From IMG/VR virus record IMGVR_UViG_3300036845_000456, positions 16,968 through 80,967 of that record: a stretch of DNA of 64,000 nt; one strand, written 5' to 3'. The DNA is from a virus. The position numbers were made by a program, and so were the translations under genes. Every line of letters begins with the position of its first letter. Positions within the stretch are counted from its first letter, which is position 1. The notes under the pieces were generated by a model. That model was not told where the DNA came from. It ran no database searches and saw only the letters and a program-made list of their open reading frames with translations. This document shows positions 5,771 through 61,664 of this stretch, one piece after another.

Positions 5771-5802
5771 ACGTCGCATAACCGCAGCGAGGATATAACC
5801 CC

Positions 5803-6168: not shown

Positions 6169-6202
6169 CAAACAACTAATCCAAACAACAAGAAGGTGAT
6201 GC

Positions 6203-6712: not shown

Positions 6713-6873
6713 GCAACGAGGAAGACATCGTCCTCGATTGCTATCGGCTCGCCCACTACTATCACCAACCCCCCGACTTGTTTCTGGCCATGTCATTGGC
6801 CGACGTGCGTCTGCATTTGCGGCGCACATCGCAACTCGCGCGCCTAATGCGACGGGACTCTGATGGCGACTGA
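6203..6873 (+). CDS. Tail assembly chaperone, -1 frameshift product (gpE/E'-type)
   Basis: Translation in the first frame gives a 169-residue protein ending at the TAG at 6710-6712. A slip of -1 at the T run 6682-6688 continues to the TGA at 6871-6873 and gives 223 residues. The first part contains the phrase NELSFREPKGGDINRYG and then LPPFLDQMDPRDWN, the mark of Mu-like tail assembly chaperones that prepare the tape measure for tube assembly. The extension is helical (DCYRLAHYYHQPPDLFLAM), as in known E' extensions, and overlaps the tape measure start by 11 bases. Such a frameshift is conserved in this position in many tailed phages. Confidence 0.75.
6682..6688 (+). promoter_or_regulatory. 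Canonical -1 ribosomal slippery heptamer T TTT TTT
   Basis: Seven T bases sit in exactly the phase required (X XXY YYZ): T is the last base of a CGT codon and the next two codons are TTT TTT. Slipping back by one base leaves both tRNA-Phe anticodons fully paired. It lies eight codons before the zero-frame stop, and the -1 frame stays open to 6873. Confidence 0.8.
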
Positions 6874-9800: not shown

Positions 9801-10198
9801 CCGGTCTTCCGACTGATCCCTTCGCGTGGCCTAGCGGTGCATCAGAAACTGCTGCTGATTCGATCAGGCGAATGAATGCGACTGCTTACGGGGGCGACAA
9901 GGGAATGACGCTCCCGAGCACAGATATCCTTCCCAAGAAGGATGACGTTCTGACGGGCAGTCGCTGGGATACCGGCGATGTCGAAGCCGATCGCGCGACT
10001 ATTGATCAAACCGCGCAGGCTGCGCGGATCAAGCAACAAGCGCGCATTCATCTCAAGATCGCGCACAAGAACGCCCCGGCCGATGTGTCTGCCAAGGCTG
10101 ACGGCGACGCCTTCAAGGGCCACACGATGGAGCGCACCAACGCGCCGCCGCCGGAAGCGCCGACCAAGTTTAAGGCCGGCGGGTTGGAGTTTGCCTGA
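6863..10198 (+). CDS. Tape measure protein 1 with transglycosylase-like and Cys/His peptidase-like domains
   Basis: A protein of 1111 residues after the tail chaperone, hence the tape measure that sets tail length. Residues 1-300 are helical, with a hydrophobic stretch near 70-95 (VIGPFPVAAGLAGYEI). A Gly/Pro/Thr-rich middle (about 300-590) follows. Residues about 590-735 resemble a lytic transglycosylase, with SLVAGESGFG carrying the likely catalytic Glu. Residues about 810-965 look like a CHAP/NlpC-P60-type amidase, with GENCAEF (Cys near 851) and GGSHAMIVG (His near 912). Its N-terminal 270 residues are clearly paralogous to the next gene. The enzymatic domains would open the cell wall during injection. 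Confidence 0.75.
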   Translation: MATEQQVLTLTTEFNDQASAAIAGVRQAIDQLSGPAVREAQRRVNQEMGEWEKAVRNLGREALGVGRAFGDLVKVIGPFPVAAGLAGYEITRIIRSSAEWSRGVVEMSNAAKMAGLSFGEFKGISEQMQRMGLTAREASAGIAGFNRAYAEVLTSGGKRAEIMSLAGMGYAQNMAQVLLNLRGITDETDRLNAVRQAGENVYQNAVNDTHDTVIARYRERQFLAKFNAEFLINIHRDLNKEDVKRMQARDELSTKARELNEAMTEEAQTREEINEKWNEFLAGPELKMIQLLIDIEKNILARMEQTAPAFGVGPAAPARPGQTNTPGPSEWSWGSAFGMGKPASAPSAAPLPPPQGLADQLGLGTLGGPAAGPATGAAKFYGFTDAGNGGGSIADNWRQSENVEDDRSGQFDQNTNEVRRLNDNLQRILTLTKPGGGLAGQLGLGNISSLGGGGGGGGGYRGTTGTTGTDGTSPTTPPPPPVTGPTGTPLAAVTGGQPFGINVSPERFSQITGLPPSFMNVTAGQRAYARGISTGMGPGGVGVRDAKFVGGKPAADWPTTAAPGSGGGFGATGTVTGTGASISGRTSIAELEKNSQAQAAIARFAAANPNVTDAKTQLYSLVAGESGFGRDMSPGRKYSGYFQMGQEETFAATGQRISGAQLAAMPFDQQLDIYTKWVHHASPNATNLGLFNAASNPAFQTASDDTVVYHAGTRAAQQNAKTWGANSPGGPGGDITVGGIKKYYSRGDTETNRQIAAAGTPAATTAVTFAGTGGPQVTETLPSGAQVIRGAATTAAVTGVNPLLTGINPTTGGSIDKTVLQQAALIAGSTGSHQAVYNFIKSQGLTYTSGENCAEFVTAVLSKGEGLAPGQLPAGVKSDYPAAASYTHYGDAVDALHAQPGDVLARHDAGGSHAMIVGPDGYDPKTGTLNILSANNDANLHIKVGPNGKLPGYYGNFRIGHLNIGPPKTATTAQAAVSSTGLPTDPFAWPSGASETAADSIRRMNATAYGGDKGMTLPSTDILPKKDDVLTGSRWDTGDVEADRATIDQTAQAARIKQQARIHLKIAHKNAPADVSAKADGDAFKGHTMERTNAPPPEAPTKFKAGGLEFA

Positions 10199-13017: not shown

Positions 13018-13020
13018 GCC

Positions 13021-13605
13021 ATGGCCTCGATCTTCGCCGTCAGCACCAAATATCATAAGCAATTCATCGGCAATCCATGGCGCGATGATCTCGTGCCAGC
13101 GTCGTTTCGCGGCGCCGAGTTTCATTGCGAAGCAAACAGTTTGGAGAGTGGCCGCCGCTTAGTGCAGCACGAATTTCCCAAGCGTGATATCAACTATTGC
13201 GAGGACATGGGACACAAAGCCATTAGCTGGACGGTGCGTGGCTATTTGATTGTCTATCCGGTGGACGTGACCGGGTCCGATCTTTATCAGCGCGACTACC
13301 GCACCCCGCGCGATGCGCTCTATCGGGTGCTGGCGGACGGCCAAGCTGGCGTTTTGCAGACGCCGACATATCCGCCGATCAGCGTATGGTGTCAGCGTTT
13401 TCGCTTTACTGAGGAAGAAAAGCTTGGCGGCTACTGCACGGTCGATATGACGTTCTTCGAGGCGGGCACCGAAACCTACGCGCTGCAAGACACGCGCACC
13501 GCGCTGATCAACACATCGACTGACTTACGCGACCGCGTAGTGACGCAGTTGATCGGCGTTCAGACGGGTGTCGCCACGCCGATAGCGCTAGTGCCGGGAT
13601 CATAA
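13021..13605 (+). CDS. DNA circularisation protein N-terminal domain (Mu gpN-like), split gene part 1
   Basis: A protein of 194 residues with the start of the DNA circularisation N-terminal family: PWRDDLVPASFRGAEF, then GRRLVQHEFPKRD, then EDMGHKAISWTVRGYL. In Mu, gpN is one protein of about 490 residues in the tail/baseplate. Here the family ends after the N-terminal domain and the second half is a separate gene four bases downstream. It probably acts in the central baseplate hub. Confidence 0.7.
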   Translation: MASIFAVSTKYHKQFIGNPWRDDLVPASFRGAEFHCEANSLESGRRLVQHEFPKRDINYCEDMGHKAISWTVRGYLIVYPVDVTGSDLYQRDYRTPRDALYRVLADGQAGVLQTPTYPPISVWCQRFRFTEEEKLGGYCTVDMTFFEAGTETYALQDTRTALINTSTDLRDRVVTQLIGVQTGVATPIALVPGS

Positions 13606-13609
13606 ACAA

Positions 13610-14278
13610 ATGGACAAGGTTGACGCGCAAGAGGCCAGCGGCATCGTGATCCGCATGATGACGCAGCTTGCGGCGACCGTGCCGGCGAGCGGTGTCAGCG
13701 GCGCCAGCGCCAGGGCGGCGATCGGCGACGTCACCGCCAACGCCTATATCTGGCTGCGCAACGATACGCTCGGGCCGCCGCTCAACAACGTGTTCCTGCT
13801 CGCGGTGCAGAACGGCTGTACCTATCAGCAAATGGAGATCGTGCGCGCCTCGATCGTCGCCGAAGCACCGCAGACGCTGGGCGCCGTGCTGGTGCAGAAT
13901 TGCGGCATCGAGCTATGCCTCGCCAGCGAAGGTGAGATCATCGCCAATACGGCGTTCGTCAGTCGGCAAGACGTGCAGATGATGAAGGAATCGATTCAGC
14001 AGCCGTTTCAGGATTCGATCGAGATTGCTGCCGATGACATGGATCAAGAGACGTTCGCCGATATAAGCGCGCTCTACGCGGCGGTGACCAACCATCTTGT
14101 GGTGACCGCGCGGCCGTTGCCGCAGTTGCTGAATTATCGGTTCAATCAAGTGCTGCCGACGCTGGTGATTGCGCAGCGGCTGTATGCCGATGCCAGCCGT
14201 GCCGACGAGATCAGGGCGGAAAATAAAATCGTCCATCCTTTGTTCGCGCCTGTCGAAGGCGTGGCGTTATCCGCGTGA
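13610..14278 (+). CDS. Mu gpN-like C-terminal half, split gene part 2
   Basis: A protein of 222 residues, mostly helical, ending in PLPQLLNYRFNQ...VIAQRLYADASRADEI, the conserved end of Mu gpN/DNA circularisation proteins (typically 'PLPR..tYr....lPsLvlAqRlYgD.sRadEi...N.v.HP.F'). It has its own ATG 5 bases after the stop of part 1. There is no sign of a frameshift because the linker is clean. The two proteins probably assemble together. Confidence 0.65.
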   Translation: MDKVDAQEASGIVIRMMTQLAATVPASGVSGASARAAIGDVTANAYIWLRNDTLGPPLNNVFLLAVQNGCTYQQMEIVRASIVAEAPQTLGAVLVQNCGIELCLASEGEIIANTAFVSRQDVQMMKESIQQPFQDSIEIAADDMDQETFADISALYAAVTNHLVVTARPLPQLLNYRFNQVLPTLVIAQRLYADASRADEIRAENKIVHPLFAPVEGVALSA

Positions 14279-14284
14279 ACTCAC

Positions 14285-15559
14285 ATGCCGCCAACTCAGT
14301 TCAAGCCGTCGGAAATCGCCACGCTTAATGTCAACGGCATTAACTATCGAGAATGGGAAACGGTGTGGGCGCAAGAGCGCTGGAACGAATCGTTTTCGTT
14401 TTTTCGTTTCACCACGGCCGAGCGCAAGCCGATCCCGCTCAGCGCGGCGATTACCTTGGCCGACATACAGGCAGGCATATTCGGGACGCAGCCGATTCCA
14501 GATATCCCGGTCTATGTCTGTGACAAGCTCGTACTGACGCTAGGCGGTTCGCCTGCGATCGCTGGCTACGTCACGCAGCGCCAAGTCGCCTACGACAAAG
14601 AGCGCCATCAGGTATTGCTGATCGGCAAGTCGGCAACGTTCTGGCCGTTCAAGTCGCACATCAAGACCGAACAGGCCAAAATGGACGGCTTCGACATCAT
14701 GAAGGTCGCCAATACGCTGATCGGCCCGCTCGGGGTGACAGTGCGGGCCGTTGGCGCTCCTGACTCGCGACCATTCGATAAATTGCAGGCGCCGCCGGGC
14801 GGAAACATTTGGGAGTTTTTGGAAAAGCTGGCGCGTCAACGCTCGGCGATTCTCGGCTCCAATGCGGCGGGCGAAGCGTTGCTGATCTTCGATCATACTT
14901 GGGGCTCGGCGGTCGATACCTTGGCCGAAGGCGTCAACATCAAAAAGATGCAGGCGGTCATTTCGATCGAGGACCAGTGGGGCGATATCGAAGTGCTCGG
15001 TCAGACGTCCGGCGACGACCAGAAAAATGGTCCCGACGCCAATGAAATGGTGGCCCATGCCAGCGGTCAAAGCTGTATCGCGGCCAATTGCGTCATCCCG
15101 GTCGAGGAACCGGTTCGCGGCCAGGATGAACTTCAGACGCGCGCCGACTTCGAAGCCAAGTGGACGGATGGCACGAAGAAAACAGCGTTGATCACGGTGT
15201 ATGGATGGTTCAGCGCATACGGGCTTTGGCATGCTGGCCAGAATGTTGCTGTGTATTCGCCGAGCGTTCCGTTGAATGAAGTGATGAAAATCAAAACCTG
15301 CACCTGGACGCAGGACAGCGAGAACGGCACCGAAACCGTGCTCGAATGCGTGAACCCGGCCGCACTCAACGACGACACGCAAATCAACGTCGGCAATCCG
15401 CTTTCGACGGCCGATCCCGCGCCAGCGAATATCAAGAACGTTAAGTACAACATAACCGATATTCGCGCGGCGATAATCGGCGCGAGCGGCAGCGACATTT
15501 TCCTGAAGCAAGCGCTGGCGCCGAAAGACTTACCAGAAACACCGATCCCAATGCCGTGA
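14285..15559 (+). CDS. Baseplate hub protein (Mu gpP / gp44-like)
   Basis: A protein of 424 residues. It starts NVNGINYREWETVWAQ, has ITLADIQAG... and a YVTQRQVAYDKERHQVLLIG segment, and a middle with WEFLEKLARQRSAILGSNAAG. This is the domain order of Mu gp44-type hub proteins (relatives of T4 gp27), which form the trimeric centre of the baseplate. Its place between gpN-like and gp45-like genes matches Mu exactly. Confidence 0.78.
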   Translation: MPPTQFKPSEIATLNVNGINYREWETVWAQERWNESFSFFRFTTAERKPIPLSAAITLADIQAGIFGTQPIPDIPVYVCDKLVLTLGGSPAIAGYVTQRQVAYDKERHQVLLIGKSATFWPFKSHIKTEQAKMDGFDIMKVANTLIGPLGVTVRAVGAPDSRPFDKLQAPPGGNIWEFLEKLARQRSAILGSNAAGEALLIFDHTWGSAVDTLAEGVNIKKMQAVISIEDQWGDIEVLGQTSGDDQKNGPDANEMVAHASGQSCIAANCVIPVEEPVRGQDELQTRADFEAKWTDGTKKTALITVYGWFSAYGLWHAGQNVAVYSPSVPLNEVMKIKTCTWTQDSENGTETVLECVNPAALNDDTQINVGNPLSTADPAPANIKNVKYNITDIRAAIIGASGSDIFLKQALAPKDLPETPIPMP

Positions 15560-15568
15560 GGTAGAACC

Positions 15569-16480
15569 ATGGTGCATCGCGCAACAGGCCAAGCCACATC
15601 ATTTCGCGGCTACATCGGCGGGGGCGCCCGCTCAAGCGTCGATACAATCAACGACACCACGCTCATGCAGAGCATGGCGGGCAACTTCATGAATGGCGAG
15701 TCGCGCGAGGGGATCGAGGCACCGCAGAACTACGGCTCAAGCTCGATTTGTCTACCGGCAGTCAAGGATATCTTGGGCAAAATCCAGCAATGCGCGGAAG
15801 TCGTGCAGAACTTCATCGGTGGTAGCCGCTCGTATCCAATCGCCGGTAACATGGATGATCGTCGCCACCGTCTCATGGGGCTTGACCCTGGCGACAACTC
15901 GATGTTCTCGACACAGGGCCGGAAGCAACAAATCCAGATGGCTGTGGAAGGAATATTCCACAGCCTGCCGATGGATAAGACCATGCGTATGGCGCTGCTC
16001 GATGAGCAGACCGAGCAGGATATGAGCAGCAAGAGCTATCAGAATCAGCAGACGGCGCAGCAAGCTGGCGGGCGCGCGCATGAAGCGGCGCGGGAGGCGT
16101 TGCGTTTCGGCATTATCAAGGACCTGATGCAGCCGCTGGTCAAGCCGAGGCGCGGAGTGCCGACTCTGTATGACCCCGGCGGCACCGGCAGCGCCACGGA
16201 GGGGACCAACGCCTTCGGCAGCTACGGCGGCGGCAACCGCATGGGGCAGAAATCGCTGAAGGACAAAAATCAGCAGTCCAAGCGCTTCATGCATCTGACT
16301 CAGGATGAAGCGGCTTCGAGCGGCACCAACGTTCGGCACTATTTGGATGACGGCAACGGCTACTATGAAGTCAACACGGACAAGAATGTTTATGTGGGTG
16401 CGTTGAAGGGCAAGGGCAGCTTCGCAAAAATCGTCACGCTCAAGGGCCCGATGAAAAACGGCTTGGGCAAGATTGGCTGA
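15569..16480 (+). CDS. Baseplate spike / assembly protein (Mu gp45-like)
   Basis: A protein of 303 residues in the Mu gp45 (gpV-like) slot. The N-terminal third lacks a clear motif. The C-terminal part, with FMHLTQDEAASSG and Gly-rich beta turns, is where an OB-fold and spike helix would lie. It probably forms the membrane-piercing tip of the tail. The call relies on synteny more than on motifs, and the N-terminus looks longer than in Mu. Confidence 0.6.
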   Translation: MVHRATGQATSFRGYIGGGARSSVDTINDTTLMQSMAGNFMNGESREGIEAPQNYGSSSICLPAVKDILGKIQQCAEVVQNFIGGSRSYPIAGNMDDRRHRLMGLDPGDNSMFSTQGRKQQIQMAVEGIFHSLPMDKTMRMALLDEQTEQDMSSKSYQNQQTAQQAGGRAHEAAREALRFGIIKDLMQPLVKPRRGVPTLYDPGGTGSATEGTNAFGSYGGGNRMGQKSLKDKNQQSKRFMHLTQDEAASSGTNVRHYLDDGNGYYEVNTDKNVYVGALKGKGSFAKIVTLKGPMKNGLGKIG

Positions 16481-16486
16481 TCGCCC

Positions 16487-17047
16487 ATGCCGCCAGTTCC
16501 CGCAAGACGCTGGGATGTGCCGGCGCCGAGCCCGTGCCCGGACATCCGGCTTGTCCAGAATCTCTACTTTCCGAAATACTCGGTCACGCTGGATTGGCGG
16601 TTGCTGGATGACGGTCGGCTTGACGATACGCAAGCGCTCGCCACCGCACTGTGCGTCGCGCTCGGCACCGACGGGCTCGCTTCGACCGACGATCAGCTTC
16701 CTGATCCTGACTCCAGCGACCGCGAGGGTTGGTGGGGCGACTTCGATGCTGGTCCGATCTGGAACGGCTGGCCGATCGGCTCGAAGCTGTGGTTGATGCG
16801 GCGCGCGGCGATCGAAAGCCCGAACGCCTTGCGCGGGGCGACCGTCGCGCGGATCAAGCATTACATCTTCGCCTGCGTGCAGCCGTTCGTGGATAACCGT
16901 ATCGCCACGACCTACACGGTGAACGTCGTGCGCGCCGATGTGCAACGAATCGATGCTTTGATTGTCGTCTATCGCGGCAACACGCCAGCCGTCGAGTTGC
17001 GCTACGCGATTCTGTGGGACGAATTCGTCAGCACCGCCTCCCGGTAA
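16487..17047 (+). CDS. Baseplate wedge protein (Mu gp46-like)
   Basis: A protein of 186 residues with DWRLLDDGRLDDTQALATAL near residue 35 and REGWWGDFDAG...GSKLWLMRRA, the core phrases of the phage GP46 family (a gp25/gpW-like wedge). It links the hub to the outer baseplate. It starts 6 bases after the previous stop and precedes the gp47-like gene, as in Mu. Confidence 0.8.
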   Translation: MPPVPARRWDVPAPSPCPDIRLVQNLYFPKYSVTLDWRLLDDGRLDDTQALATALCVALGTDGLASTDDQLPDPDSSDREGWWGDFDAGPIWNGWPIGSKLWLMRRAAIESPNALRGATVARIKHYIFACVQPFVDNRIATTYTVNVVRADVQRIDALIVVYRGNTPAVELRYAILWDEFVSTASR

Positions 17048-17055
17048 ACAATCCC

Positions 17056-18132
17056 ATGCCCTGGTCAACGCCGACTTTGCGCCAAGTGCGCAGCCTTGTG
17101 CGCGACAACGTCAACGCCATTCTCCCAGGCGCGGACGCGGCCGTGCCGAACAGCGTTTTGCGCGTCGTGTCTGATGTGACCGGCGCGACCTGTCATCTCA
17201 CGCTGCAATATGTTGATTGGTTAGCTTTGCAGTTGCTGCCAGACACCGCCGAATCAATTTGGTTGGACCGGCACGCCAACATATGGCTGGTGAATGACGA
17301 CGGCTCGATCGGCCGTAAGGTGGCGACGCTGGCCAGTGGCATCGTCAACATGAGCGGCAATATTTGGGCCGTCATTCCAGCCGGAACATCGCTGAACGTC
17401 GGTTCAGTTTACTACGAGACAACGCAGCAAGTGACGGTGACATCAGGCTCGGCGCCTGTGCCTGTCCCGACGCGCGCGATTGATCCTGGCGCCGCTGGCA
17501 ATCTCGATCCCGGCGCGACAATGGGCGTGAATGCGGCGGTTGGCATTGATCCGACCGCGACCGTCGTGACGATGCAGGGAGGCACCGACACCGAGACGGA
17601 CGAGGAATTACGTTCGCGGGTGTTACTGCGGATTCGCGAGCCACCAATGGGTGGCGATGCGACCGACTACGTTGAATGGGCGCTCGCGGTCCCTGGCGTA
17701 ACGCGCGCATGGCCGTTCCCGCAAGAGATGGGCATCGGCACGATGACCTTGCGCTTCATGATGGACGACTTGCGCGCGGGCAATGGCGGGTTTCCATTGC
17801 CGGACGATGTCGATGCGGTCGCCGCCTACATCAACAAGGTACGGCCGGTCACCGTCAAAGACATGTTTGTCGTCTGCCCAATCCCCTATCCGGTCAACGC
17901 GCGCATCGCGTATCTGGATGCCGATAATCATGCGGTGCATGACGCCATCGTCACCAGCTTGTTGAACCAATTCCTGGTGCGCTCGAAGCCTGGGCAGACG
18001 TGGTATCGCGCGTGGCTCGATGAAGCCATCATGAGCGCGCCCGGCGTCAACGCGTATGATCTGATCGCCAGCGATGTTGCGATGCCAAGCAGCGGCTACA
18101 TGCCCGTGCTGGGCGACGTGACTTATGGATAA
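17056..18132 (+). CDS. Baseplate J-like protein (Mu gp47-like)
   Basis: A protein of 358 residues with the baseplate J pattern: LRQVRSLVRDNVNAILPGAD at the start, the WLDRHANIW... segment, NLDPGATM in the beta core, and TETDEELRSRVLLRIREPPMGG followed by DYVEWALAVPGVTRAWPFP. It is the wedge that couples sheath contraction to the hub. ATG at 17056 was chosen over an in-frame upstream start because the upstream one lies inside the preceding gene. Confidence 0.85.
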   Translation: MPWSTPTLRQVRSLVRDNVNAILPGADAAVPNSVLRVVSDVTGATCHLTLQYVDWLALQLLPDTAESIWLDRHANIWLVNDDGSIGRKVATLASGIVNMSGNIWAVIPAGTSLNVGSVYYETTQQVTVTSGSAPVPVPTRAIDPGAAGNLDPGATMGVNAAVGIDPTATVVTMQGGTDTETDEELRSRVLLRIREPPMGGDATDYVEWALAVPGVTRAWPFPQEMGIGTMTLRFMMDDLRAGNGGFPLPDDVDAVAAYINKVRPVTVKDMFVVCPIPYPVNARIAYLDADNHAVHDAIVTSLLNQFLVRSKPGQTWYRAWLDEAIMSAPGVNAYDLIASDVAMPSSGYMPVLGDVTYG

Positions 18133-31794: not shown

Positions 31795-33366
31795 CTAGGC
31801 GTCCGTCCCGACGTCGATCACGTCGCCCCAAGGCAACGTGCTTTTCAGGTAGGTCACGATGCGAGGGTCGCCATACGCCGCCCAAAGGACGGGCGCCTGC
31901 GGTTCCGGGCCAGGGTCGCCAATCTCAAGATCGGTCAGCGCCACGATCAGCGAGCAGTCTGGATCGTTTTCATCAATCCACTGGAACGCTGGTCGCAAGT
32001 CCGTGCCGCCACGGCCGACCGCCTTGAACTCGACTTGGTCGCCGTCGAGATAGCGATCGACCGCATTGACCCGCGTGTCGTTGTAGACGACCACGGCTTC
32101 CGAGATGATGCCCGCGTCCATCGCCGCCTGAACCTCGTTGCCGACTTTGTTCAGGACGTCGTCAGACATGGACAGCGACGTATCAACAAGAAACGCGACT
32201 TTGTTGATGCCGTCGCGCTGCGTGCCGGGCAGCACGAACCCGGTGTGTGCGAACCGGCGATTCGGTCGGTTCCACGTTTCTGAGCGGCTGGCGCCCGCGT
32301 CGAAAAACTGGCGCATTTCTTCGCGCCAATCCTCGGTCGGCGTCTTGCGCCGCTCAAGTTCCGACTCCCAATGGCCGGGCAAGCAGCCGGCCTTCTTGGC
32401 GAGCGCAGCGGCTTGATGCGCGATGACGTCCCAATGCGCGTCGAGATCGGGGGCCTGTTCAGCGGGCGCGTCGAGCACGCCACCGCAATCCCAAGCCTGT
32501 TGCTCATAGCCGGGGCGCGGCGTAGCATTGCCCTCCCCGTCAGCGTCTGCGTCCTCGCCCACGTCCTCGCCGACGTCAGCGCCGTCGCCTTCGCCTTCGT
32601 TAGTGCCGCCGTCCTCGTCACCGTCGTTGCCCTCGTCGCCGTCTTCGTTTTCGTCAACGTCGCCGTCACCGCCAGCGCCATCGGCACCGTCGTCGGCATC
32701 GCCGTCGTCAACGTCGCCGCCGTCGGCATCGTCCGCGTCACTGTCTGCGTCACCGTCAGCGTTTGCGTCAGCGGCTTCGTCTTCGTCACCGGCATCGCCG
32801 TCGTCACCGTCAGCGTCATCGGCAACGTCGTCGTCAGCGTCTCCGTCTTCGTTGCTGCCAGCGTCATCGCCATCGTCTGCGTCCACGGCATCGTCTTCGT
32901 CACCGCCAGCGTCATCGGCAGCGTCTTCTTGTTGCTGCTGTTGCTGTTCCTCGATTTCCAAGACGCGGTAGATGTCTTCGGTCGCCATGCCGGCAAACTC
33001 GGGACGGTTCAGCACCCAATCGGGGAGCTTGAACCCTTCCGCGAGAATGTCAGGGTTGATCGAATAATCGCACGCCTTGTTCCAACGCAGCGGATCGCGC
33101 CCACGGCGCCGCGTCGAATGGTGGCGGGCATCGTGTTCGCTTTCGTGAACTTGGATGCCTTCCAGGAACTCTTGCGACAACTCGCAAACGAATTGCGGGT
33201 TGTAGTAGTGTTTGATCGAGTCGGTGGCCATGCGTGGAATTGACCAGCATGGCACCGGCTCGACGTTCGCGACCAGCACGCCATAAAACTTGCGTGCTTG
33301 AATGATGGCCGCGCGCGCCTTCATCACCTTGTCTTTGGCGACGCGCTCCATTTCGAGGCGGTTCAT
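31795..33366 (-). CDS. VWA-domain / metallopeptidase-like protein (DUF2201-type) with acidic repeat
   Basis: A protein of 523 residues. Residues 74-83 (HESEHDARHH) resemble an HExxH-type metal site. Residues 146-280 are an Asp/Ala/Gly repeat (encoded by a hexamer repeat on the DNA). The C-terminal part has a VWA domain with the MIDAS-like DTSLSMS near residue 400 and RGGTDLRPAFQWIDENDPD. Such proteins work with MoxR ATPases to load metal or remodel complexes. A long-chain acidic segment inside may be a flexible linker. ATG at 33366 follows a GGAG site. Confidence 0.68.
   Translation of the reverse strand: MNRLEMERVAKDKVMKARAAIIQARKFYGVLVANVEPVPCWSIPRMATDSIKHYYNPQFVCELSQEFLEGIQVHESEHDARHHSTRRRGRDPLRWNKACDYSINPDILAEGFKLPDWVLNRPEFAGMATEDIYRVLEIEEQQQQQQEDAADDAGGDEDDAVDADDGDDAGSNEDGDADDDVADDADGDDGDAGDEDEAADANADGDADSDADDADGGDVDDGDADDGADGAGGDGDVDENEDGDEGNDGDEDGGTNEGEGDGADVGEDVGEDADADGEGNATPRPGYEQQAWDCGGVLDAPAEQAPDLDAHWDVIAHQAAALAKKAGCLPGHWESELERRKTPTEDWREEMRQFFDAGASRSETWNRPNRRFAHTGFVLPGTQRDGINKVAFLVDTSLSMSDDVLNKVGNEVQAAMDAGIISEAVVVYNDTRVNAVDRYLDGDQVEFKAVGRGGTDLRPAFQWIDENDPDCSLIVALTDLEIGDPGPEPQAPVLWAAYGDPRIVTYLKSTLPWGDVIDVGTDA
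32533..32925. repeat. Degenerate hexamer repeat (GYCNNC, plus strand), locus A
   Basis: About 390 bases read on the plus strand as tandem GYC NNC (for example GTCACCGTCAGC, GCCAGCGTCATC) with no exact long copy. On the minus strand this codes for the acidic Asp/Ala run of the VWA protein. The same pattern occurs at loci B, C and D. There is no fixed unit longer than six bases. Confidence 0.7.
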
Positions 33367-37795: not shown

Positions 37796-38219
37796 ATTGC
37801 GCGACGTGTTGATCATCGCGCCGCTGGCGTTCGGCGTCGGATTCTTTATCGGGGATTCCTGGCAAGACTCTGCGCCGGTCGCGGTGTCCAGTGGCGGCCT
37901 CACGATCGTGCAGCGGTTGGCGCCAACGCCATCGTCAACGCCACCGCCATCGCCGACGCCCACGTCAACGTCTACGCCTTCGATCTCGGCCTCGCCCACG
38001 CCGTCGCCAGCGTCAACGTCTCTGTCTGCGGCCACGGCTACGTCATCGCCTCCGTCAACGTCCACGTCAACGCCTTCGCCTTCGCCATCGCCAGCGTCCT
38101 CGCCTTCGTCTGCGGCAGCGTCCTCGCCTTCGTCAACGCGCAATATCTGCTCGCCCGGGTGGCGCGAGAATTTCTATCGCCACGGAGTTCTGCACTGGCG
38201 GTGTCGCTATGGCCGATGA
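37767..38219 (+). CDS. Membrane-anchored Ser/Thr/Pro low-complexity protein
   Basis: A protein of 150 residues (120 residues less 10 if started at the TTG at 37797 that follows a GGAG site). One membrane helix (VLIIAPLAFGVGFFIGDSW) lies near the start. Residues 55-125 are almost only Ser, Thr, Pro and Ala, encoded by the hexamer repeat at locus B. A short C-terminal piece (GWRENFYRHGVLHW) ends it. Possibly an envelope protein with a disordered stalk. The first ATG lies inside the upstream gene, so the start is uncertain. Confidence 0.5.
   Translation: MISLPRSENELRDVLIIAPLAFGVGFFIGDSWQDSAPVAVSSGGLTIVQRLAPTPSSTPPPSPTPTSTSTPSISASPTPSPASTSLSAATATSSPPSTSTSTPSPSPSPASSPSSAAASSPSSTRNICSPGWRENFYRHGVLHWRCRYGR
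37920..38136. repeat. Degenerate hexamer repeat (GYCNNC), locus B
   Basis: About 217 bases of GYC NNC units (GTCAACGCCATC and similar) on the plus strand. In this gene it is translated in the frame giving Ser/Thr/Pro. Same consensus as in loci A, C and D. Confidence 0.7.
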
Positions 38220-38403: not shown

Positions 38404-38687
38404 CGGATCAGGAAACGGAAACGGGATACGGGCTGACGGTCGGCTTTGATCCGCTGTTGCGCAGCTTGCGCCGCCATTTTCTCAAACCACGCTACGACAT
38501 TCCTGATAAGACAACCGCGCGCGCCATCAAAACTTCGCCGACGTCCTCGTCAGCGTCTACGCCGACGGCCTCGTCATCGTCATCGCCCACGTCAACGCTC
38601 TCGCCACCGCCCCTGCCTTCGCCAACGTCGTCGCCATCGTCACCGCCCTCGCCAGCGCCAACGTCTTCGCCCTCGGTGCGTCCGTGA
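38400..38687 (+). CDS. Small protein with low-complexity Ser/Pro tail
   Basis: A protein of 95 residues. The first 45 residues (GYGLTVGFDPLLRSLRRHF and on) look like a real domain. The rest is Ser/Thr/Pro from the hexamer repeat at locus C. The true functional protein may be the short head. Coupled to the upstream gene by ATGA. Confidence 0.45.
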   Translation: MTDQETETGYGLTVGFDPLLRSLRRHFLKPRYDIPDKTTARAIKTSPTSSSASTPTASSSSSPTSTLSPPPLPSPTSSPSSPPSPAPTSSPSVRP

Positions 38688-38840
38688 TCCAGCATCTACG
38701 GCATCGACTATGTCCTCGTTACCGTCATCGTCTCCGTCAATGCCCGCGCTAGAGCCGACGCCACCGCCTACGCCGACGCCAACGCCCTCGTCATCGCCGA
38801 CGCACCGTCAACGCCTTCGCCGACGTCTTCGCCAACGTTC
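38530..38840. repeat. Degenerate hexamer repeat (GYCNNC), locus C
   Basis: Two blocks of hexamer repeat (about 38530-38680 and 38735-38840), interrupted by 50 bases of different sequence. The first is translated by the gene at 38400. The second has no gene that I can support, so repeat persists even where nothing is translated. Confidence 0.65.
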
Positions 38841-38862: not shown

Positions 38863-39519
38863 ATGCAGCGCGCCTACCAAATCGCATTCATCAAAGGCTA
38901 CATCGCGCATCCGTACTGGCCGCAGCGCGAGCGGCTGATCAACATCCAGAAGGAGTCCGGGACCAAGCGCGTGCGCTCGGAGGAAAAGCGCGTCAAGGTC
39001 TTGCGCGACTATCTGGCCACCAAAAACATGAGCATGGCCGATTACGAAGCGCTTGAGGAAGAAGCCGATCGCCAGTTCTATACGGCGGCCGATCTCGACA
39101 ATGCCGACGGCCACGACACGACCGAGATTGTGATCCCGGCGCATCAGATATACGGCATGGCGGCGCAAGCTTGCGGTCTGGCCTCAAGTTCGATCCGCAT
39201 TGCCCGCGCCGAAAATCTGCGCACGGTCCTGACCGTGTCCGACATATTCACCGGCAAGCACAAAGCAGACGGCGTATGGGAGCGTTTCGTCGTCGTCACC
39301 GCTGGCGCCGGCAACAAGCTGAGCAATCAAAGAGCGCTGCGCAGCAACGAGTATGTTGGTCCGTTTCAGGCGACATTTGAAGTGAAGTTCAGCGAGGAAG
39401 TCATCGATCCGAAAAAGGTTGACGATTTTCTCGGCTTCTGTGGCCGCGAGATCGGCGTTGGCGCCAGCCGCAAGCTCGGTTGGGGCCGCTTCGAGATCGG
39501 CAAGGCCAAAGCCAAATGA
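38863..39519 (+). CDS. Conserved phage protein with RAMP-like glycine loop
   Basis: A protein of 218 residues. The C-terminal part has GVGASRKLGWGRFEIG, resembling the glycine-rich loop of RAMP-fold proteins. The middle contains IVIPAHQIYGMAAQACGLAS and DIFTGKHKADGVWERFVVV, a phrase set seen in phage proteins of unknown function. No catalytic histidine is evident. RAMP membership is a guess from the loop; no CRISPR array is near. Confidence 0.5.
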   Translation: MQRAYQIAFIKGYIAHPYWPQRERLINIQKESGTKRVRSEEKRVKVLRDYLATKNMSMADYEALEEEADRQFYTAADLDNADGHDTTEIVIPAHQIYGMAAQACGLASSSIRIARAENLRTVLTVSDIFTGKHKADGVWERFVVVTAGAGNKLSNQRALRSNEYVGPFQATFEVKFSEEVIDPKKVDDFLGFCGREIGVGASRKLGWGRFEIGKAKAK

Positions 39520-52694: not shown

Positions 52695-54626
52695 ATGGCG
52701 TTCTTGGATCGGCTGCTACGATCTGCAAGCAGGCTTTGGAGTGAATGGCGGGCGCGTGCACGCCATGTGGGGTTCAGGCTGCTTGGCGAGTGGCCGGGGC
52801 CGTGGCAGGATAGGGGCTCGCCCACGCCAGCGCCAACGTCAGCGTCTTCGCTTCCGCCAGCGCCCACGCCAACGCCTACGCCAACGTCGCCGACGTCCAC
52901 GCCATTGCCCGCGCCAACGCCCACGTCGCCGTCTACGCCGACGCCCTCGTCACCGCCAACGCCAACGCCCGAGCCGCCGCCATCGTCTACGTCCTCGTCG
53001 TCGTCCTCGCCTTCGCCTTCGCCGACGCCTTCGTCACCGCCACCGTCCTCGCCGACGTCCACGCCATCGCCCGCGCCCTCGCCATCGTCACCGCCGACGC
53101 CATCGCCAGCGCCAACGCCCACGACTTCGGTCCCGCCATCGTCTACGTCACCGCCTTCGTCTACGTCTACGTCACCGCCAGCGCCCGAGCCGGTGCCAGC
53201 ATCGCTGCTGGCTCCGGTGTTCCAACTCCCGGCCTATCGCAAAGAAAAGTGGGTCACGCCGAAACCGGCCGACATTGCGCCGAAACCGGTCAAGCGCACG
53301 GTGCTGCATCGCACCGAACCCGCCAAGCCGCGCCAGCCAAGACCACAGGCGCCGGTACTGACCGACGATCCCGAGCAGTGGGGTCAATATTACTTCCGCG
53401 ACGCGATCCTCGATCAACTCGATGTCTTTTGGGTCTATCTAAAGCGGATGAAGCGCGGCGACCGCGACAGCTACGATCTATTGCATCAAATCGGCATTCA
53501 GATGGTGCCGTTTTCAGCCACGCATAACTTCGACAAGTGGCTCGGCGGTAGCGAGAACGTTGAACTGTCGCCGTGGTTTCGCCAGCGCCGTCCCAGTTTT
53601 GGCGCCATCGCCTACGGCTTCGATGATATCGCCAAGGCCGAAGATCGCATGACCATCGTGGAAAGCGCAGAAGAACCGCCGGACCATGTTTATGCTGACG
53701 TTGAACAGCGACTGAAAGCCGAAGGGGTTCTCGGCAAGCGTCCGGCTTATTTCGTCGCCACGTCCTACAAGTTCGACAAGCGCATCGAAGATCGGCCGAT
53801 GACGATGTTCACGCCGCGCTTCCTGTATTTTCGCAAGATGCAGCGGACGCCGCCAGAACTCGAACACCTGACTGGTGGCGATACCTATTTCATGTGCGTG
53901 TACTGGGATCGGGCCGACAAAAAAATCCACAAACGGTACCAGAGGCGGCGCGGCGGCATCCCGCAAGAGTATGGTGTATTCATCGAGCATGTGACTGGAC
54001 GCGTGCGGATTCTGAAAACCAAGATACACGAGAAGGTCACGATCAAGTGGTCGAAAGGACCTTATGGCGGCAAGTGTTCAGAACCAACGGAATTCATCAA
54101 CACGCACTGGGACGTGCCTGATCGCTTCCTGCGTTGGACGCATCGCGATATGGGCGACATCGAGCCGGAAGATTATTTGCGCCGCATGTTCATCAACGCC
54201 GCCAATCTATACGAATCGGCGGCGCTCGGCTCGGTGGTGCGCGTTGCCGTACACAAGAACGACTTGACCGCGACATTCGGTGTCGAGATCAGGCGCATGG
54301 CGCATTTCTTCCGCGATCGCGACGTCGCGGTGACGACGAAAGGCAGGCGCCGCCCGGTGCTGCGTATGGTGCGGGCGCACATGCGCAAGAACGGCACCAA
54401 GGTGAAGACCTACTTCAGCGGCATGAAGAAGTTCACCTGGGCTGGCTACAAAGTGGAGATCAGCGTCCCCGGCAAGGATCATTTTCATCTGCCGGAAGTC
54501 AACGTTGGTGCCATCTCGCTCGGCGCCAAAGAGCGCGTTGACGAGCGCGGCTTTCTCACCAATCAGCAATACGGAAAGCTTCTCGTCGAGAAAATGCAAC
54601 AGGGAGCAGGAGTACGCAAACCATGA
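52695..54626 (+). CDS. Large protein with Ser/Thr/Pro repeat and conserved C-terminus
   Basis: 643 residues. Residues 1-40 are a basic head (RLLRSASRLWSEWRARARHV). Residues 42-170 are pure low complexity (TPTPTPTSPTSTPLPAPTPT), encoded by the hexamer repeat at locus D. Residues about 230-640 are globular, with VYLKRMKRGDRDSYDLLHQI, YFVATSYKFDKRIEDRPMTM and later EPEDYLRRMFINAANLYESA. No enzymatic motif. It lies with replication genes and may be a DNA-linked structural protein. Confidence 0.6.
   Translation: MAFLDRLLRSASRLWSEWRARARHVGFRLLGEWPGPWQDRGSPTPAPTSASSLPPAPTPTPTPTSPTSTPLPAPTPTSPSTPTPSSPPTPTPEPPPSSTSSSSSSPSPSPTPSSPPPSSPTSTPSPAPSPSSPPTPSPAPTPTTSVPPSSTSPPSSTSTSPPAPEPVPASLLAPVFQLPAYRKEKWVTPKPADIAPKPVKRTVLHRTEPAKPRQPRPQAPVLTDDPEQWGQYYFRDAILDQLDVFWVYLKRMKRGDRDSYDLLHQIGIQMVPFSATHNFDKWLGGSENVELSPWFRQRRPSFGAIAYGFDDIAKAEDRMTIVESAEEPPDHVYADVEQRLKAEGVLGKRPAYFVATSYKFDKRIEDRPMTMFTPRFLYFRKMQRTPPELEHLTGGDTYFMCVYWDRADKKIHKRYQRRRGGIPQEYGVFIEHVTGRVRILKTKIHEKVTIKWSKGPYGGKCSEPTEFINTHWDVPDRFLRWTHRDMGDIEPEDYLRRMFINAANLYESAALGSVVRVAVHKNDLTATFGVEIRRMAHFFRDRDVAVTTKGRRRPVLRMVRAHMRKNGTKVKTYFSGMKKFTWAGYKVEISVPGKDHFHLPEVNVGAISLGAKERVDERGFLTNQQYGKLLVEKMQQGAGVRKP
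52816..53192. repeat. Degenerate hexamer repeat (GYCNNC), locus D
   Basis: About 375 bases of GYC NNC units on the plus strand (GCCAACGTCAGC and similar), translated in the Ser/Thr/Pro frame of the gene at 52695. The same consensus as loci A to C. Copy-to-copy identity is low and no longer unit exists. Confidence 0.7.
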
Positions 54627-56424: not shown

Positions 56425-56578
56425 TGTTATTTCGAAGAAAAAGTTTCGAAATCGAGCCGAGAACGGCTTGACAGTGATTGATTTTGGGGTTTTCAATTTA
56501 GGCGTGCCGCTGCGACGTCCGGCAAAGATATCGGCAACGGCACGCCAGAACCTCGGTCAACCAAGGAGGGATTTCCCT

Positions 56579-58012
56579 ATGACCGTCAATCAATCTAGCA
56601 AGCGCTTCGCTCCCCTGCAAACGCACAACGTCACGATCCCCGATCACTTGCTCGTGGTCCCAACGCACGATGATCTGCTGACGCAGACCCATACGTTCGG
56701 ATACGACGGCGAGCAGTTTTTCGGCACTGCTTACATCCAAGGGCGCCGACTGCAATTCACGACGGCAATGCCGATCTCGAAGATGATCGAGATCAGCAAG
56801 ATCGATCGCGCCAAAGCTCGCAGCAACGTCAGGGAAGTCATGGAACGTGCCAACCGGCCGCGTGTCGCGGGCCATTCCAAGGCATTACGCGAGTATTTGT
56901 TGACGACGGCATGCCGTGATGAAAAATTCATTTTGCCGGCGTTTACGTTCAACTTCGGCGATGAATCAACAACCCCCGAAGACGTTCCCGAAGCTGTGCT
57001 GATCATCTACGCGCGTGAAAACGACGTCAGCACGAATGGTTGGCCTGCTCTGTTCCAACTTCCGAGCAATATCAAATTGGATACGACCGACGGCGCGCAT
57101 CGCGGTGACGAAAGCGCAAAAATCCTCGGCGATGCCAGTCTGTCTGACGCGGAACGTGCGAACTTGCGGCGCAATGCTTGTGCGGTCACGGTCATCTTCG
57201 AGCGTAAACGTGTCGATGCGCATCAGGATTTTGCCGATTGTGCGAAGGCTAAACCGATCACCGGAAGCCTGATCACATCTTTCGATGTCCGCGATCTGCG
57301 CAATGCGCGCGCCGTGGAACTGGTACAGCGCGTGCCGTTCTTGACCTATTACGTGGATGCGACCGCTGCCAATGTTAATCTCTCGGCTGCATCCCTAAAA
57401 ATATGGTCGATGTCCGCTGTGCGCGGGTTTGTTGCTCACGTTCAGGATCGTTTTCCGCCTGCTACTGGCCAGCATGTTGAGACGACTCTGGTCGAGAAAA
57501 TGGACGGTGCCGAAGATTTCTTCACAGAAGTCATTAGACACCTACCACAACTCAACACTTTGGATCGCGCGCGCCTGGAATTGGAGGAACGGCAGCGGAC
57601 GAATGTTCCAATCAAAACACCCATGACGCGCACCGAGACGCCCGCGACTTTCCGCAATAAACGTGGTGGCGATATCGCCTTGCGTGGCGTCGGCATGAGC
57701 CTGTTTGCACGTGGTTTCGTGCATTGCAAGCAATACGGCGTGGACTATGCAGAGATGGCTAGCAAGCTCGCGACCCTCGATTGGCATTTGCTCGATATTG
57801 AAAGAACCGAGTTACCTAATCCTGAGACTGACGAAGGCCGCGAGAATTTCGCCGATAAGGTGCGCGAGCACACGAATCCGATCTGGCAAAGCATGGTTGT
57901 CGTCGGGGAGAGCCGATACAAAATCGGTTCATCCAATGACGAAGCCAATGCCGCGTGGACGCGCATACTCGCCAAGATCGATCCGGCAAGTCTGTCACAA
58001 GCGGCAGAATAA
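56579..58012 (+). CDS. DndB-like protein (DGQHR-type)
   Basis: 477 residues from ATG 56579, preceded by the strong site AAGGAGGGATTTCC. Residues 171-175 read DGAHR, a variant of the DGQHR motif, after NIKLDTT. Then comes DAHQDFADCAKAKPITGSL (residues 213-231), the typical second motif of DndB/DGQHR proteins. DndB regulates phosphorothioate DNA modification in bacteria; related proteins occur in other DNA-modification systems. No DndC, D or E partner is seen here. In this phage it could regulate or counter host modification, or work with the Mom-like gene upstream. Confidence 0.65.
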   Translation: MTVNQSSKRFAPLQTHNVTIPDHLLVVPTHDDLLTQTHTFGYDGEQFFGTAYIQGRRLQFTTAMPISKMIEISKIDRAKARSNVREVMERANRPRVAGHSKALREYLLTTACRDEKFILPAFTFNFGDESTTPEDVPEAVLIIYARENDVSTNGWPALFQLPSNIKLDTTDGAHRGDESAKILGDASLSDAERANLRRNACAVTVIFERKRVDAHQDFADCAKAKPITGSLITSFDVRDLRNARAVELVQRVPFLTYYVDATAANVNLSAASLKIWSMSAVRGFVAHVQDRFPPATGQHVETTLVEKMDGAEDFFTEVIRHLPQLNTLDRARLELEERQRTNVPIKTPMTRTETPATFRNKRGGDIALRGVGMSLFARGFVHCKQYGVDYAEMASKLATLDWHLLDIERTELPNPETDEGRENFADKVREHTNPIWQSMVVVGESRYKIGSSNDEANAAWTRILAKIDPASLSQAAE

Positions 58013-58026
58013 AGGCGACCAACACA

Positions 58027-58209
58027 ATGCCCGCCATCTACCAATGGCAGGCGCGCGCCAGCGAGGCACTTGTCCTCGCTGGCACTGCCGCAACCATAAT
58101 TGAGCGCGAGTTATTGATCGACATCGCCAGCGCCTACGATCGGCTCGCACGGATCAATTCTGCCAAACATTCAGGCGGACAACGTGAGCGATCTCCTTCA
58201 ACAGCTTGA
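58027..58209 (+). CDS. Small helical protein
   Basis: 60 residues from ATG 58027. QWQARASEALVLAGTAATII then IDIASAYDRLARINSAK. Ala-rich helices. Overlaps the next gene by 26 bases. Function unknown. Confidence 0.5.
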   Translation: MPAIYQWQARASEALVLAGTAATIIERELLIDIASAYDRLARINSAKHSGGQRERSPSTA

Positions 58210-58564
58210 GGACATGAAGGCCGATTGGGCCAGCAACTCGCGCGAACTGATGGCGCTCAATGCCGAGCTTGGCCCGCTGCAAACGCGCCGCTACGGCATC
58301 ATCGACGCAATCAAGCACACGCATGCTTGTTGCGTGCAACGCGATCAATATGAGCGCCAGCAAGTCTATGTGGTCGGCTACCGTCGTGCCGGCGCGGTCG
58401 AGCGGTTCAAGCTGTTTGCTGATCTCAATGAGATCGACGTCGATCTCGGCCCGCTGAACGTCCAACGCCGTGAACTGCTCAGATTGGATAAATACTTTAG
58501 GTTGACGAGCGAAGCTGTCCGCAAAGCCATGAGTGACGCGGCTAAAGGTTCAACCCGACGATGA
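58184..58564 (+). CDS. Coiled-coil protein
   Basis: 126 residues from GTG 58184. LLQQLEDMKADWASNSRELM, then LQTRRYGIIDAIKHTHACCV, then ERFKLFADLNEIDVDLGPLN. Alternating charged helices. No domain recognised. The last gene before the pentamer array. Confidence 0.5.
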   Translation: MSDLLQQLEDMKADWASNSRELMALNAELGPLQTRRYGIIDAIKHTHACCVQRDQYERQQVYVVGYRRAGAVERFKLFADLNEIDVDLGPLNVQRRELLRLDKYFRLTSEAVRKAMSDAAKGSTRR

Positions 58565-58582: not shown

Positions 58583-60250
58583 GGTCAATCCCTTCGCCTG
58601 CCTTGCCCGGCCATGGCTCGCCTTCGCCCTGCCGTGCCTGACCCGGCATAGCCAAGCCTTGCCTGCCATGCCTCGCCGGGCCCTACCAACCAAGCCTTGC
58701 CGTGCCTTGCCCCGATCACCGGGCCAAACCAAACCATGCCTGCCCTGCCTCGCCTCGACCAGCCGTGCAGCGTCTGGCCCGACCGTGCCGCGACGTGCCG
58801 CGCCTCACCACGCCTGCCGCGTCCACACCATGCCTAATTACGCACTGCCCGGCCCAGCGACATGACGCCATGACGTGCCCGATTGCGCCCTGCCCTGCCT
58901 GCCTTACCGCGCCTTACCAAGCTCTACCTTCGCCATGCCTCTTTGCGGCTCGCCCAGTTGCGCCTTGCCTGCCGTGCCCGATCACGTCACGCCTCGCCTC
59001 GCCAGATTCTGCCGAGCCTTGCCTCGCCCCGCCAAGTCACACCGCCGGACCTAGCCCTACCGAGCCACACAAGCCCCGCCGTACCGCGCCTTGTCACACC
59101 AAGCCAAACCGCGCCTGCCCGGCCAAGCCCCGCCATGCCACAACCTGCTGCGCCGAGACGTACCCTGCCGATCGAGCCTAGCCGAACGCACCGAGCCCTG
59201 CCTGCCGCGCCTTGCCGAACCACGTTACGCCGGGCCATGCCACGCCCGAAGCGCCTATTCTCGCCGGGCCTACCCGTGCCTGCCTTGCCTAAGCCGCGCC
59301 GGGCCACACCCCGCTATGCCAGGGGCTGCCGTGCCGCACCGAGACGCGCCGCCCGAGCCACGCCTGCCATGCCTTGTCCGGCGTGCCCCGGCCGGGCCCC
59401 ACCTTGCCCCGCCGTGCCTGCCTAGCCTGACCTTGTCCAGCCGAGCCGTGCACGGCCCCGCCTGACCTAATCCGGCGTCGTCCTGCCGAACCGCGCCACG
59501 CCTGCCCCGCCAAGCCCTGCCCGGCCATGCCACATCCGAGCCTCGCCTCGTCTTGCCGCGCCTCGCCTGCCATGCCTGCCCTGCCTTGCCGCGCCTTGCC
59601 GCGCCCTGCCAGACCCGACCCGGGCAGGCCCCGCCTCGCCTCGCTGGACCTTGCCTGCCTCGCCAGGGCAAGCCCCGCCTCGGCAGGCCCTGCCGCGTCA
59701 TGCCCGGCCTCGCTATGTCAAGCCGGACCGCGCCTTACCGCGCCTGCCTCCCGCGACAGGCCGCGCCGTGCCATGCCTCTTTTCGCCCAGTGTGACCTTC
59801 CGTGCCACACCAGACCGCGTCTCACCGCGCCTCGAAGCGCCGCCCAGTGCTCGCCTGCCCTGCCTCGCCTACGCCAGACCGCGCCTTGCCGCGACGTCAC
59901 AGGCCCGACCGCGCCCGGCCATGCCACGCCTGCCTCGCCACGCCTAACCCCCTTCGGGCCCGGCTACGCCTCGTTGCGTCAAACCGGGCCACGCCTTGCC
60001 TGCCTCACCAGACCACGCCTTGATCCGCCATGCCTGACCGTATCTCACCCCGCCGCTGAAACGCCCAGTCACGCCACGCCTGCCATGCCTGCCCAAGCCA
60101 AGCCCGCCCATACCCCGCCGCTGCCCGGCCTCACCGAGTGCGCCGGGCCCTGCCATGCCGGAACACGTCCCGCCTGCCATGCCTGAACTCGTCACGATGT
60201 GACGCCACGTGCCATGTAATACCCCGCCTCGCCTCGCCTGCCATGCCTGA
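58583..60250. repeat. Degenerate pentanucleotide repeat array, about 1.7 kb, no convincing gene
   Basis: The stretch is made of five-base steps such as TTGCC, CTGCC, GCGCC, CGCCT, AAGCC, so that GCC recurs nearly every five bases (consensus NNGCC, first two bases free). GCC recurs on the plus strand, GGC on the minus strand. No exact longer unit exists and no ribosome site precedes any of the several long open frames, which read as Ala/Arg/Pro/Leu/Cys in all phases. Open frames here follow from the lack of stops in this repeat, so none is reported as a gene. It lies between the plus-strand block ending at 58564 and the minus-strand block. Confidence 0.7.
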
Positions 60251-60254: not shown

Positions 60255-60791
60255 TCATCCCGGTGGCGGCGCATGCGTTTCACCGTCCTTGCCGCCACGT
60301 CGCCGCGACGGTTTGATCCGCGCACCCGCCGCAACAATGTGTTGTAAGCCGGTTTCGAGTTGTTCTGATAGGCCGGGGAAGCGTTGGTCGAGAAACATCG
60401 CCATGTTGCGCAGTCGTGTGATAACGTCACGACATCGCTCGATCCCGTCAGCAACAACTTCCTTGGCTTGCGTAACCGTCAGTTCCGGCGCAGACAAATC
60501 AAGATAGGATTGACTGCGTTTCGGCACAAACGGATCACGAACATAAACCACCGACGAGATCGTCATTGGTGTATCAACAACAACAACAGTGACGAAGCGG
60601 AGTAGTTTGCGTGCTCGGTCAAGCCGTTGCCGGTGTGCCGCGACGTGATCATCCCAAATGAATTCCTTGTGTAAGGGATGATCCTTTGCGCGCGCGGCCT
60701 CAACGATCAGTTGGGGCGAAAGGCGGCCGCGATTTTTCTTGCGGATGTCCGCCAGTGCCTTGTGGACGCGCGCTTGCCGGTGCGATCTCAT
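60255..60791 (-). CDS. Conserved phage protein of unknown function
   Basis: 178 residues. KALADIRKKNRGRLSPQLIV, then EAARAKDHPLHKEFIWDDHV, then RQRLDRARKLLRFVTVVVVD. These phrases recur in alphaproteobacterial phages. Mostly helical. The stop lies exactly at the edge of the pentamer array. Function unknown. Confidence 0.62.
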   Translation of the reverse strand: MRSHRQARVHKALADIRKKNRGRLSPQLIVEAARAKDHPLHKEFIWDDHVAAHRQRLDRARKLLRFVTVVVVDTPMTISSVVYVRDPFVPKRSQSYLDLSAPELTVTQAKEVVADGIERCRDVITRLRNMAMFLDQRFPGLSEQLETGLQHIVAAGARIKPSRRRGGKDGETHAPPPG

Positions 60792-60797: not shown

Positions 60798-61664
60798 TTA
60801 CTCCGTGCCAATATACTCTGCGTCAGAGCCGTTGCCGCCGCGTTCAACGATCGTGCGGCTGGTGGCTGGCAACGCTAGATCAACATCAGCAAGCAGACCG
60901 TCCATCTCACGACGTTTCACTTCCTCATTGAACCACATCAAGATGTCGGCTGTGTCCTGATCAAAGAAAACCGGCTTTTCATAAGCCTTTTGCTGGACCG
61001 CGCGACCTTGCAGTTTGACCACGCTGCGGAAGTCGGCGTCATTATCGGCAACGATCTTGAACGAGCCGTATGGGCCGCCACGCTCGCCACGCCAATCGCC
61101 GATACCAACGATCACGCCGGCTGCTCCGAGCAAGTTACTGATCGTTCGCTCGCTTAGTACGTTCTTCATGTACTGGATCGAAATGCGACACGCCCACTGT
61201 GGAAAGATCGGCCGCGTGCGCACATCCGGCGTCCGATTCATGTCAGAATTTCGAACCATCGCAGAAAAGATTTGCGGCACGCCATATAAGTCGATGGTGA
61301 CATCCATGATTTTCGTCAAGCGCTCGATTTGCGCGCGCTTGGCGCCAGGAATATCGATCGCCGCTTGTGCCAAGCTCCCATGCAAGGCGCCATTGGGAAC
61401 GTGAAACAACGTCTTTTCTGGTTTGCGGCAGAGATAGAACGAACTGCGATATTCCTTGAGCGGATCATGCTTGAGCCGCTGTTCCAAACTGGCGCGGTTC
61501 TGTTGCGGTGATGGCAAAATCAGTTCCTGCCAAGCCTTGAACGGAAACCGGTGCATGATCAGCGGCGACGTGCCAAGCAAGTTGGCGCGCACTTCGCCCA
61601 TTTTGATCTCTTGGACTTCGATTTGCGTCGTTTCGGTCTTTTTACGTGCCGGTGCTTTAGCCAT
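60798..61664 (-). CDS. Conserved phage protein with RAMP-like glycine loop
   Basis: 288 residues. ANLLGTSPLIMHRFPFKAWQ, then LKHDPLKEYRSSFYLCRKPE, then LLGAAGVIVGIGDWRGERGG and PYGSFKIVAD. The GxGxWR...GxxGSF segment (about residues 188-210) is a glycine-rich loop like those in RAMP-fold proteins, and similar phage proteins of unknown function share it. A GAAGGAT site precedes ATG 61664. Confidence 0.5.
   Translation of the reverse strand: MAKAPARKKTETTQIEVQEIKMGEVRANLLGTSPLIMHRFPFKAWQELILPSPQQNRASLEQRLKHDPLKEYRSSFYLCRKPEKTLFHVPNGALHGSLAQAAIDIPGAKRAQIERLTKIMDVTIDLYGVPQIFSAMVRNSDMNRTPDVRTRPIFPQWACRISIQYMKNVLSERTISNLLGAAGVIVGIGDWRGERGGPYGSFKIVADNDADFRSVVKLQGRAVQQKAYEKPVFFDQDTADILMWFNEEVKRREMDGLLADVDLALPATSRTIVERGGNGSDAEYIGTE

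Follow-up and report, generated by a model that had tools for sequence, protein, structure and literature searches.

We argue that the pentanucleotide array in this phage DNA is almost certainly the guide bank of a VIPR system, and that it very probably encodes about 20 guide RNAs. The window (the whole 64,000-nucleotide stretch that was analysed) carries this vrRNA array at 58599-60247 on the minus strand, where it reads as GGCNN. The assignment draws on lag-5 autocorrelation, on parsing by GGCAGGC and on the linkage of such arrays to the Vipr gene. Since the sequence, the unit, the locus layout and the orientation all fit the system described in a recent preprint (PMC13142463, bioRxiv 2026.04.26.720920), we read the array as VIPR. 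The GGC/NN structure and the link to the gene were established here before we met that preprint.

As far as the main text of PMC13142463 describes it, VIPR (Viral Interference Programmable Repeat) consists of the Vipr protein, the vrRNA and accessory genes (vap1-6). Vipr is a RAMP that has an RRM core, a G-loop and a thumb. Each vrRNA alternates GGY with a hypervariable NN over 9-16 repeats, and the NN pairs read DNA with a one-base skip. The systems are found mainly in phages and act against rival phages, and some vrRNAs target other VIPR systems. In SUSP1 (type II) the repeats are followed by an invariant structured 3' tail, and array architectures vary by type. VIPR is thus a kind already known, and the window system is a further member of it, with a RAMP protein that has a G-loop, a hypervariable tandem GGY/NN array and an accessory gene, the candidate vap.

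Measured over 58583-60250, the NNGCC array has an identity of 0.489, 0.459 and 0.431 at lags of 5, 10 and 15. The baseline from 200 dinucleotide-preserving shuffles is 0.320, which gives z values of 18, 13 and 10. The five-base period claimed by the first-pass annotation is therefore real. GCC occurs 211 times against 120 expected, and 99 of the 210 gaps from one GCC to the next are exactly 5. A scan of the whole window found no second region with a comparable lag-5 excess. The best edges are about 58599 and 60247, a length of 1.65 kb, and the array starts 7 nt past the stop of the minus-strand gene at 60255-60791. It lies between a plus-strand block that ends with ORF 58184-58564 and a minus-strand block that begins with ORF 60255-60791. 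The two blocks are convergent, and the array does separate them as had been described. The minus-strand unit is GGCNN, often GGTNN and more rarely GACNN. Two positions of the unit had been called nearly free, and NN is indeed high-entropy.

One can imagine that the array codes for a protein of low complexity made of Ala, Arg, Pro, Leu and Cys. Long frames are open in it, and small ORFs are annotated within the array in several mycobacteriophages. However, this openness follows from the unit itself: a stop codon can only arise from NN=TA, on either strand, so long open frames are to be expected in all phases. Frequent steps of 4, 6, 9 and 14 bases interrupt any reading frame, and no product is conserved between relatives. 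A coding region is hardly credible on these grounds, and the earlier statement that no convincing gene lies inside the array holds. It must be noted that six Cheoctovirus records (L002, L248, L251, L253, L254 and L260) have small annotated 'hypothetical proteins' inside their arrays, and that some vipr starts reach into the array. These are probably misannotations. Rfam has no family that matches the window, the array or the 12 related loci searched, and there are no tRNA genes in the window.

The protein beside the array also speaks for a guide bank. The minus-strand gene at 60798-61664 encodes a 288 aa RAMP/Cas7-like protein, Vipr, identified by PHROG match (phrog_4652), profile and fold. 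A profile of 54 homologues has a single confident match among solved structures, PDB 36pp_D, 'SUSP1 Vipr protein' (E=8e-39). All 54 of the aligned homologues fall in phrog_4652. The C-terminal glycine-rich loop of the window protein is GIGDWRGERGGPYGSF, and the G-loop glycines G183, G187 and G200 are invariant or nearly so in the alignment. The AlphaFold model has a pLDDT of 86. The best 50 Foldseek matches to this model are all CRISPR RAMP proteins, mostly Csm3/Cas7, with TM-scores that are moderate (0.25-0.39 by query). Judged by homology and by this model, the product belongs to the Vipr family and has a predicted RAMP fold like that of Csm3/Cas7. Between vipr and the array is the 178 aa gene at 60255-60791, also on the minus strand. 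It matches phrog_15946 and is a candidate vap (vipr accessory) gene by its conserved adjacency to vipr, which it adjoins in many array-bearing phages. A fold search with its protein found no confident relative, only weak PadR-like matches.

The link between array and gene holds far beyond the window. A scan for the DNA pattern finds similar arrays in at least 120 viral contig stretches. Linkage was examined in 79 viral contigs with diversified NNGCC arrays, among the matches listed, all found by DNA pattern only. A vipr gene of the phrog_4652 type is present in 66 of these 79, at a median distance of 88 bp, and the other 13 have no detectable vipr in the DNA covered. GGC is on the vipr gene strand in 64 of the 66 linked contigs. 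The control was 119 viral stretches chosen by another repeat, of similar total length (1.1 Mb). Only 3 of these have a vipr-type gene: L305 and L311, which carry six-letter systems (see below), and L360, which has a GGY array of its own. The relation can also be found in the other direction. All 19 listed loci of L386-L407 (the L048 clade) were found by protein alone and have arrays, as do L005 and L006, and L004 with more GGT. A distant DNA search with the array of L018 found no phage record.

This linkage also bears on the proposal of the first-pass annotation that the array is a DNA-binding platform or a landmark for replication or packaging. Such a scenario requires a phage protein that binds GCC every half helical turn, and the very regular 5-bp spacing of GCC would suit it. 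However, the strand is fixed relative to vipr in those 64 of 66 contigs. The array is found before, between or after the two genes, which suits an element that is transcribed. The protein linked to it has the RAMP fold, which binds RNA, and the spacing is off by 1 at cassette borders. We found no support for a platform or landmark and consider it very improbable. The array is best read as a guide-RNA array transcribed from the minus strand.

Known phages have the same arrangement. The cluster F1 mycobacteriophages (Cheoctovirus), the Gordonia phages Pipp, UmaThurman and Ecliptus, and Cyanophage Cy-LDV1 have NNGCC arrays, and both the phrog_4652 and the phrog_15946 gene flank arrays in all three of these sets. 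The phrog_4652 gene is beside the array in every named phage examined, and phrog_15946 in many. The first-pass annotation knew of no phage family with such an array. These phages, together with the system in PMC13142463, contradict that. Their arrays differ from that of the window in being shorter (about 180-350 bp), and those of F1 are far less degenerate. They also lie within early operons, whereas the window array lies between convergent blocks. The suggestion that the stretch is hypervariable is borne out, and the arrays of relatives are hypervariable too.

Another account is that of a selfish microsatellite without function, which grew by slippage and afterwards gathered mutations. Cluster F1 arrays do differ mainly by indels in steps of 5, and perfect GCCNN microsatellites exist in bacterial genomes. 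Among bacterial NNGCC matches vipr is present in 2 of 120, and most of the others are plain microsatellites. The two exceptions are L152 (a Fibrobacteres MAG) and L164 (a Patescibacteria MAG), each with the gene beside the array. Yet decay would strike all five positions of the unit. Instead GGC is kept in 87% of middle units in phage arrays while NN is high-entropy. A microsatellite would also have to account for tight linkage to one gene family and for the exchange of cassettes. We think this account has very little chance of being right for the window array.

There are 24 four-base steps in the window array, and 23 of them are GCCT, which is GGCA|GGC on the minus strand. This rule is also true of most related arrays that have such steps. 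We read the GGCA|GGC steps as guide borders. They divide the window array into 22 intervals, of which about 20 are of guide length. Two intervals are 9 nt, most of the others are 54-111 nt and one is 146 nt. Most blocks are 54-89 nt, or about 11-18 units, and the block 59655-59577 can be read in phase as 15 units followed by GGCA. No invariant 3' tail like that of SUSP1 was recognised between the window blocks, and none of them has an Rfam match.

The clade L386-L399 supplies the comparison. Its Vipr proteins are 99-100% identical, and its arrays consist of blocks mostly 34-54 nt long (5k+4) and bounded by GGCA|GGC. These blocks recur across phages in different combinations, and 11 of the 14 arrays have a fixed first block. 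We infer that each block bounded in this way is one guide cassette. The shuffling of cassettes behind a fixed first block resembles CRISPR spacer turnover. In five other relatives (L021, L035, L042, L062 and L075) longer fixed inserts break the arrays at regular distances (in L035, AGCAAACTTCTGCACCTCC...TGTGTTT). These inserts are possibly tails or ribozymes, and Rfam has no match for these arrays.

It is worth considering whether the window array, though a VIPR array, has decayed and is now largely non-functional in this phage. Perfect GGC makes up 55% of its middle units, against 87% over all phage arrays. There are also the two 9-nt intervals and several out-of-phase blocks. On the other side, both vipr and the candidate vap have reading frames that are open and intact. 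The 23 border marks are kept, and GGT, an accepted form of GGY, makes up another 17% of units. Wholesale decay is unlikely, though it is a more serious possibility than any of the readings that deny a guide array. The units are more degenerate than average, and part of the guide bank may be old or decayed.

The array, the gene family and its fold, the linkage, the co-orientation, the cassette structure and the hypervariability in relatives are our own observations. The production of RNA, pairing with a 1-nt skip and the repression of rivals are carried over by analogy from preprint PMC13142463. On that analogy the minus strand of the window array would be transcribed, either together with vipr and vap or close to them. 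A filament of Vipr RAMP subunits would bind each block of the RNA, about 11-18 GGYNN units long. The protein would grip GGY as a scaffold, and the NN pairs would jointly base-pair with double-stranded DNA, with one target base skipped between pairs. A guide bound in this manner would shut down genes that belong to competing phages or prophages.

Guide targets were sought in several ways, and for the window's own guides these searches turned up none. An exact scan of viral contigs gave 0 matches with one 9-unit guide of the window and 0 with one guide of the L386 clade. One window guide, allowed up to 3 mismatches, had 0 matches across 11 related records. When all window guides were run against some 2.9 Mb of DNA collected for the analysis, they showed no excess over permuted ones. 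A pool of 321 guides gave 2 matches of at least 19/20 at skip 1 and 0 at other skips, and permutations gave 0-3. There is a single persuasive case in a relative. When 11 units of a guide of L093 (784-883) are read with a 1-nt skip, 21 of 22 positions match the antisense of the L056 vipr gene, and the antisense vipr of L018 and L108 is matched nearly as well. The match falls at the stretch KKTDNIE(T/S)YVY, with the skip on the wobble base. The top score among 40 permuted guides was 19, and other skips scored 17-18. By sequence, this guide would be directed at the vipr of other phages.

The window system shares with VIPR, as PMC13142463 describes it in its main text, the RAMP family, a small accessory gene, GGY/NN on the gene strand, a phage location and guide-sized blocks. 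It differs from that description in having about 20 guide blocks over 1.65 kb that are split by GGCA|GGC alone, with a 3' tail that was not recognised, in its many degenerate units, and in sharing its genome with a second RAMP whose units have six bases. Class 1 CRISPR-Cas has the same backbone protein fold with a glycine-rich loop (the Csm3/Cas7 RAMPs of types III and VII), but the guide letters in the window are not contiguous. The window array has no repeat-spacer form, and there is no cas family among the selected reading frames that were scanned. TIGR-Tas we take to be a different system, set apart by its description as having another protein family and another repeat logic. As described in PMC12045711, it has in common with the window a tandem array of guides that is carried by phages and sits next to a single small protein.

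The second RAMP deserves its own argument. A 218 aa gene at 38863-39519 on the plus strand, with the G-loop GVGASRKLGWGRFEI, is tied to the Vipr family by profile-profile comparison (probability 99%, E=2.8e-18). A hexamer pattern, CGYCNN, marks three plus-strand arrays near it, which we propose as guide arrays of a second system: 37921-38134, 38536-38671 and 38723-38833. The last is directly before the gene, and past that array comes a GGGAG that resembles a ribosome site and would serve the gene itself. The homology to RAMP proteins is shared with standard VIPR; the repeats are CGYCNN hexamers and not GGY/NN pentamers. It looks as if the second system works like VIPR while standing outside its standard membership. 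The third scaffold letter varies from C to T as it does in GGY, and this makes the gene strand the likelier one for the hexamer RNA.

Relatives of this second family with CGYCNN arrays are L261-L266, L305, L311 and L437-L440. Six of them (L261-L266) were found by protein alone, and in 5 of the 6 the hexamer arrays are directly upstream; the sixth, L264, has a weak and broken pattern downstream only. L305 and L311 were found by the hexamer DNA pattern only, and both carry the second RAMP gene. In L437-L440 the gene DNA is 88-94% identical (about 89%) and the array flanks are fixed. The CG.C positions of their arrays agree at 93-100% and the NN positions at 22-26%, which is chance. Fixed CGYC with NN at chance level is, as far as an alignment can tell, a guide-like pattern.

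The main rival here is that the hexamers are codons (NCG YCN) of a proline-rich linker, which may be true for some tracts. Indels in the hexamer tracts are nearly all multiples of 3. The arrays of L266 and L311 are preceded by a stop codon and followed by the next gene, and no start codon with a ribosome site is evident for them. Several six-letter loci have a separate ribosome site for the RAMP gene past the array. We do not count another CGTCNN-rich tract in the window, 32538-32913, among the guide arrays, since it most likely encodes the acidic linker of a minus-strand protein (31795-33366). A further CGYCNN tract at 52819-53185 is in frame within ORF 52695-54626 and is (S/T/A)P-rich. This could be a linker or one more hexamer array. 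Hexamer guides tried at skips 0-4 gave two 20/20 matches, both from one record family, and these look like leftover array sequence.

We lean towards a phage with two RNA-guided systems, a five-letter VIPR (GGY/NN) and a divergent RAMP with six-letter CGYC/NN guides that have four scaffold and two coding letters. Having both appears unusual within our sample of 12 plus 8 records. Among the 12 pentamer-system records there is no full member of the second family, and one weak match over 57 positions is the pentamer Vipr of L048 itself. The six-letter records have a single RAMP each (8 of 8). The main text of PMC13142463 does not describe a six-letter unit, and its wording there is GGY/NN 'or a related consensus'. 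If our proposal is true, the second system would add a possibly new form of noncontiguous RNA-guided recognition, one that follows a skip rule of its own.

The window encodes a tail sheath, two tape-measure-like proteins and baseplate genes at 3836-18132, and these genes mark its source as a contractile-tailed phage. The protein at 56468-58012, which adjoins the VIPR locus, has a DndB domain (DNA-sulfur modification-associated, PF14072, E=1.6e-26). An unexplained repeat of an uncultivated phage becomes a readable list of about 20 encoded DNA targets, from which its rivals would be predictable. VIPR arrays are common and modular, with cassettes that are added, dropped and rearranged around a nearly unchanged protein. 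With a six-letter system beside a divergent RAMP, one could test directly how guide letters get their spacing from RAMP proteins, and this spacing bears on the origin of the CRISPR backbones with their six-base periodicity.
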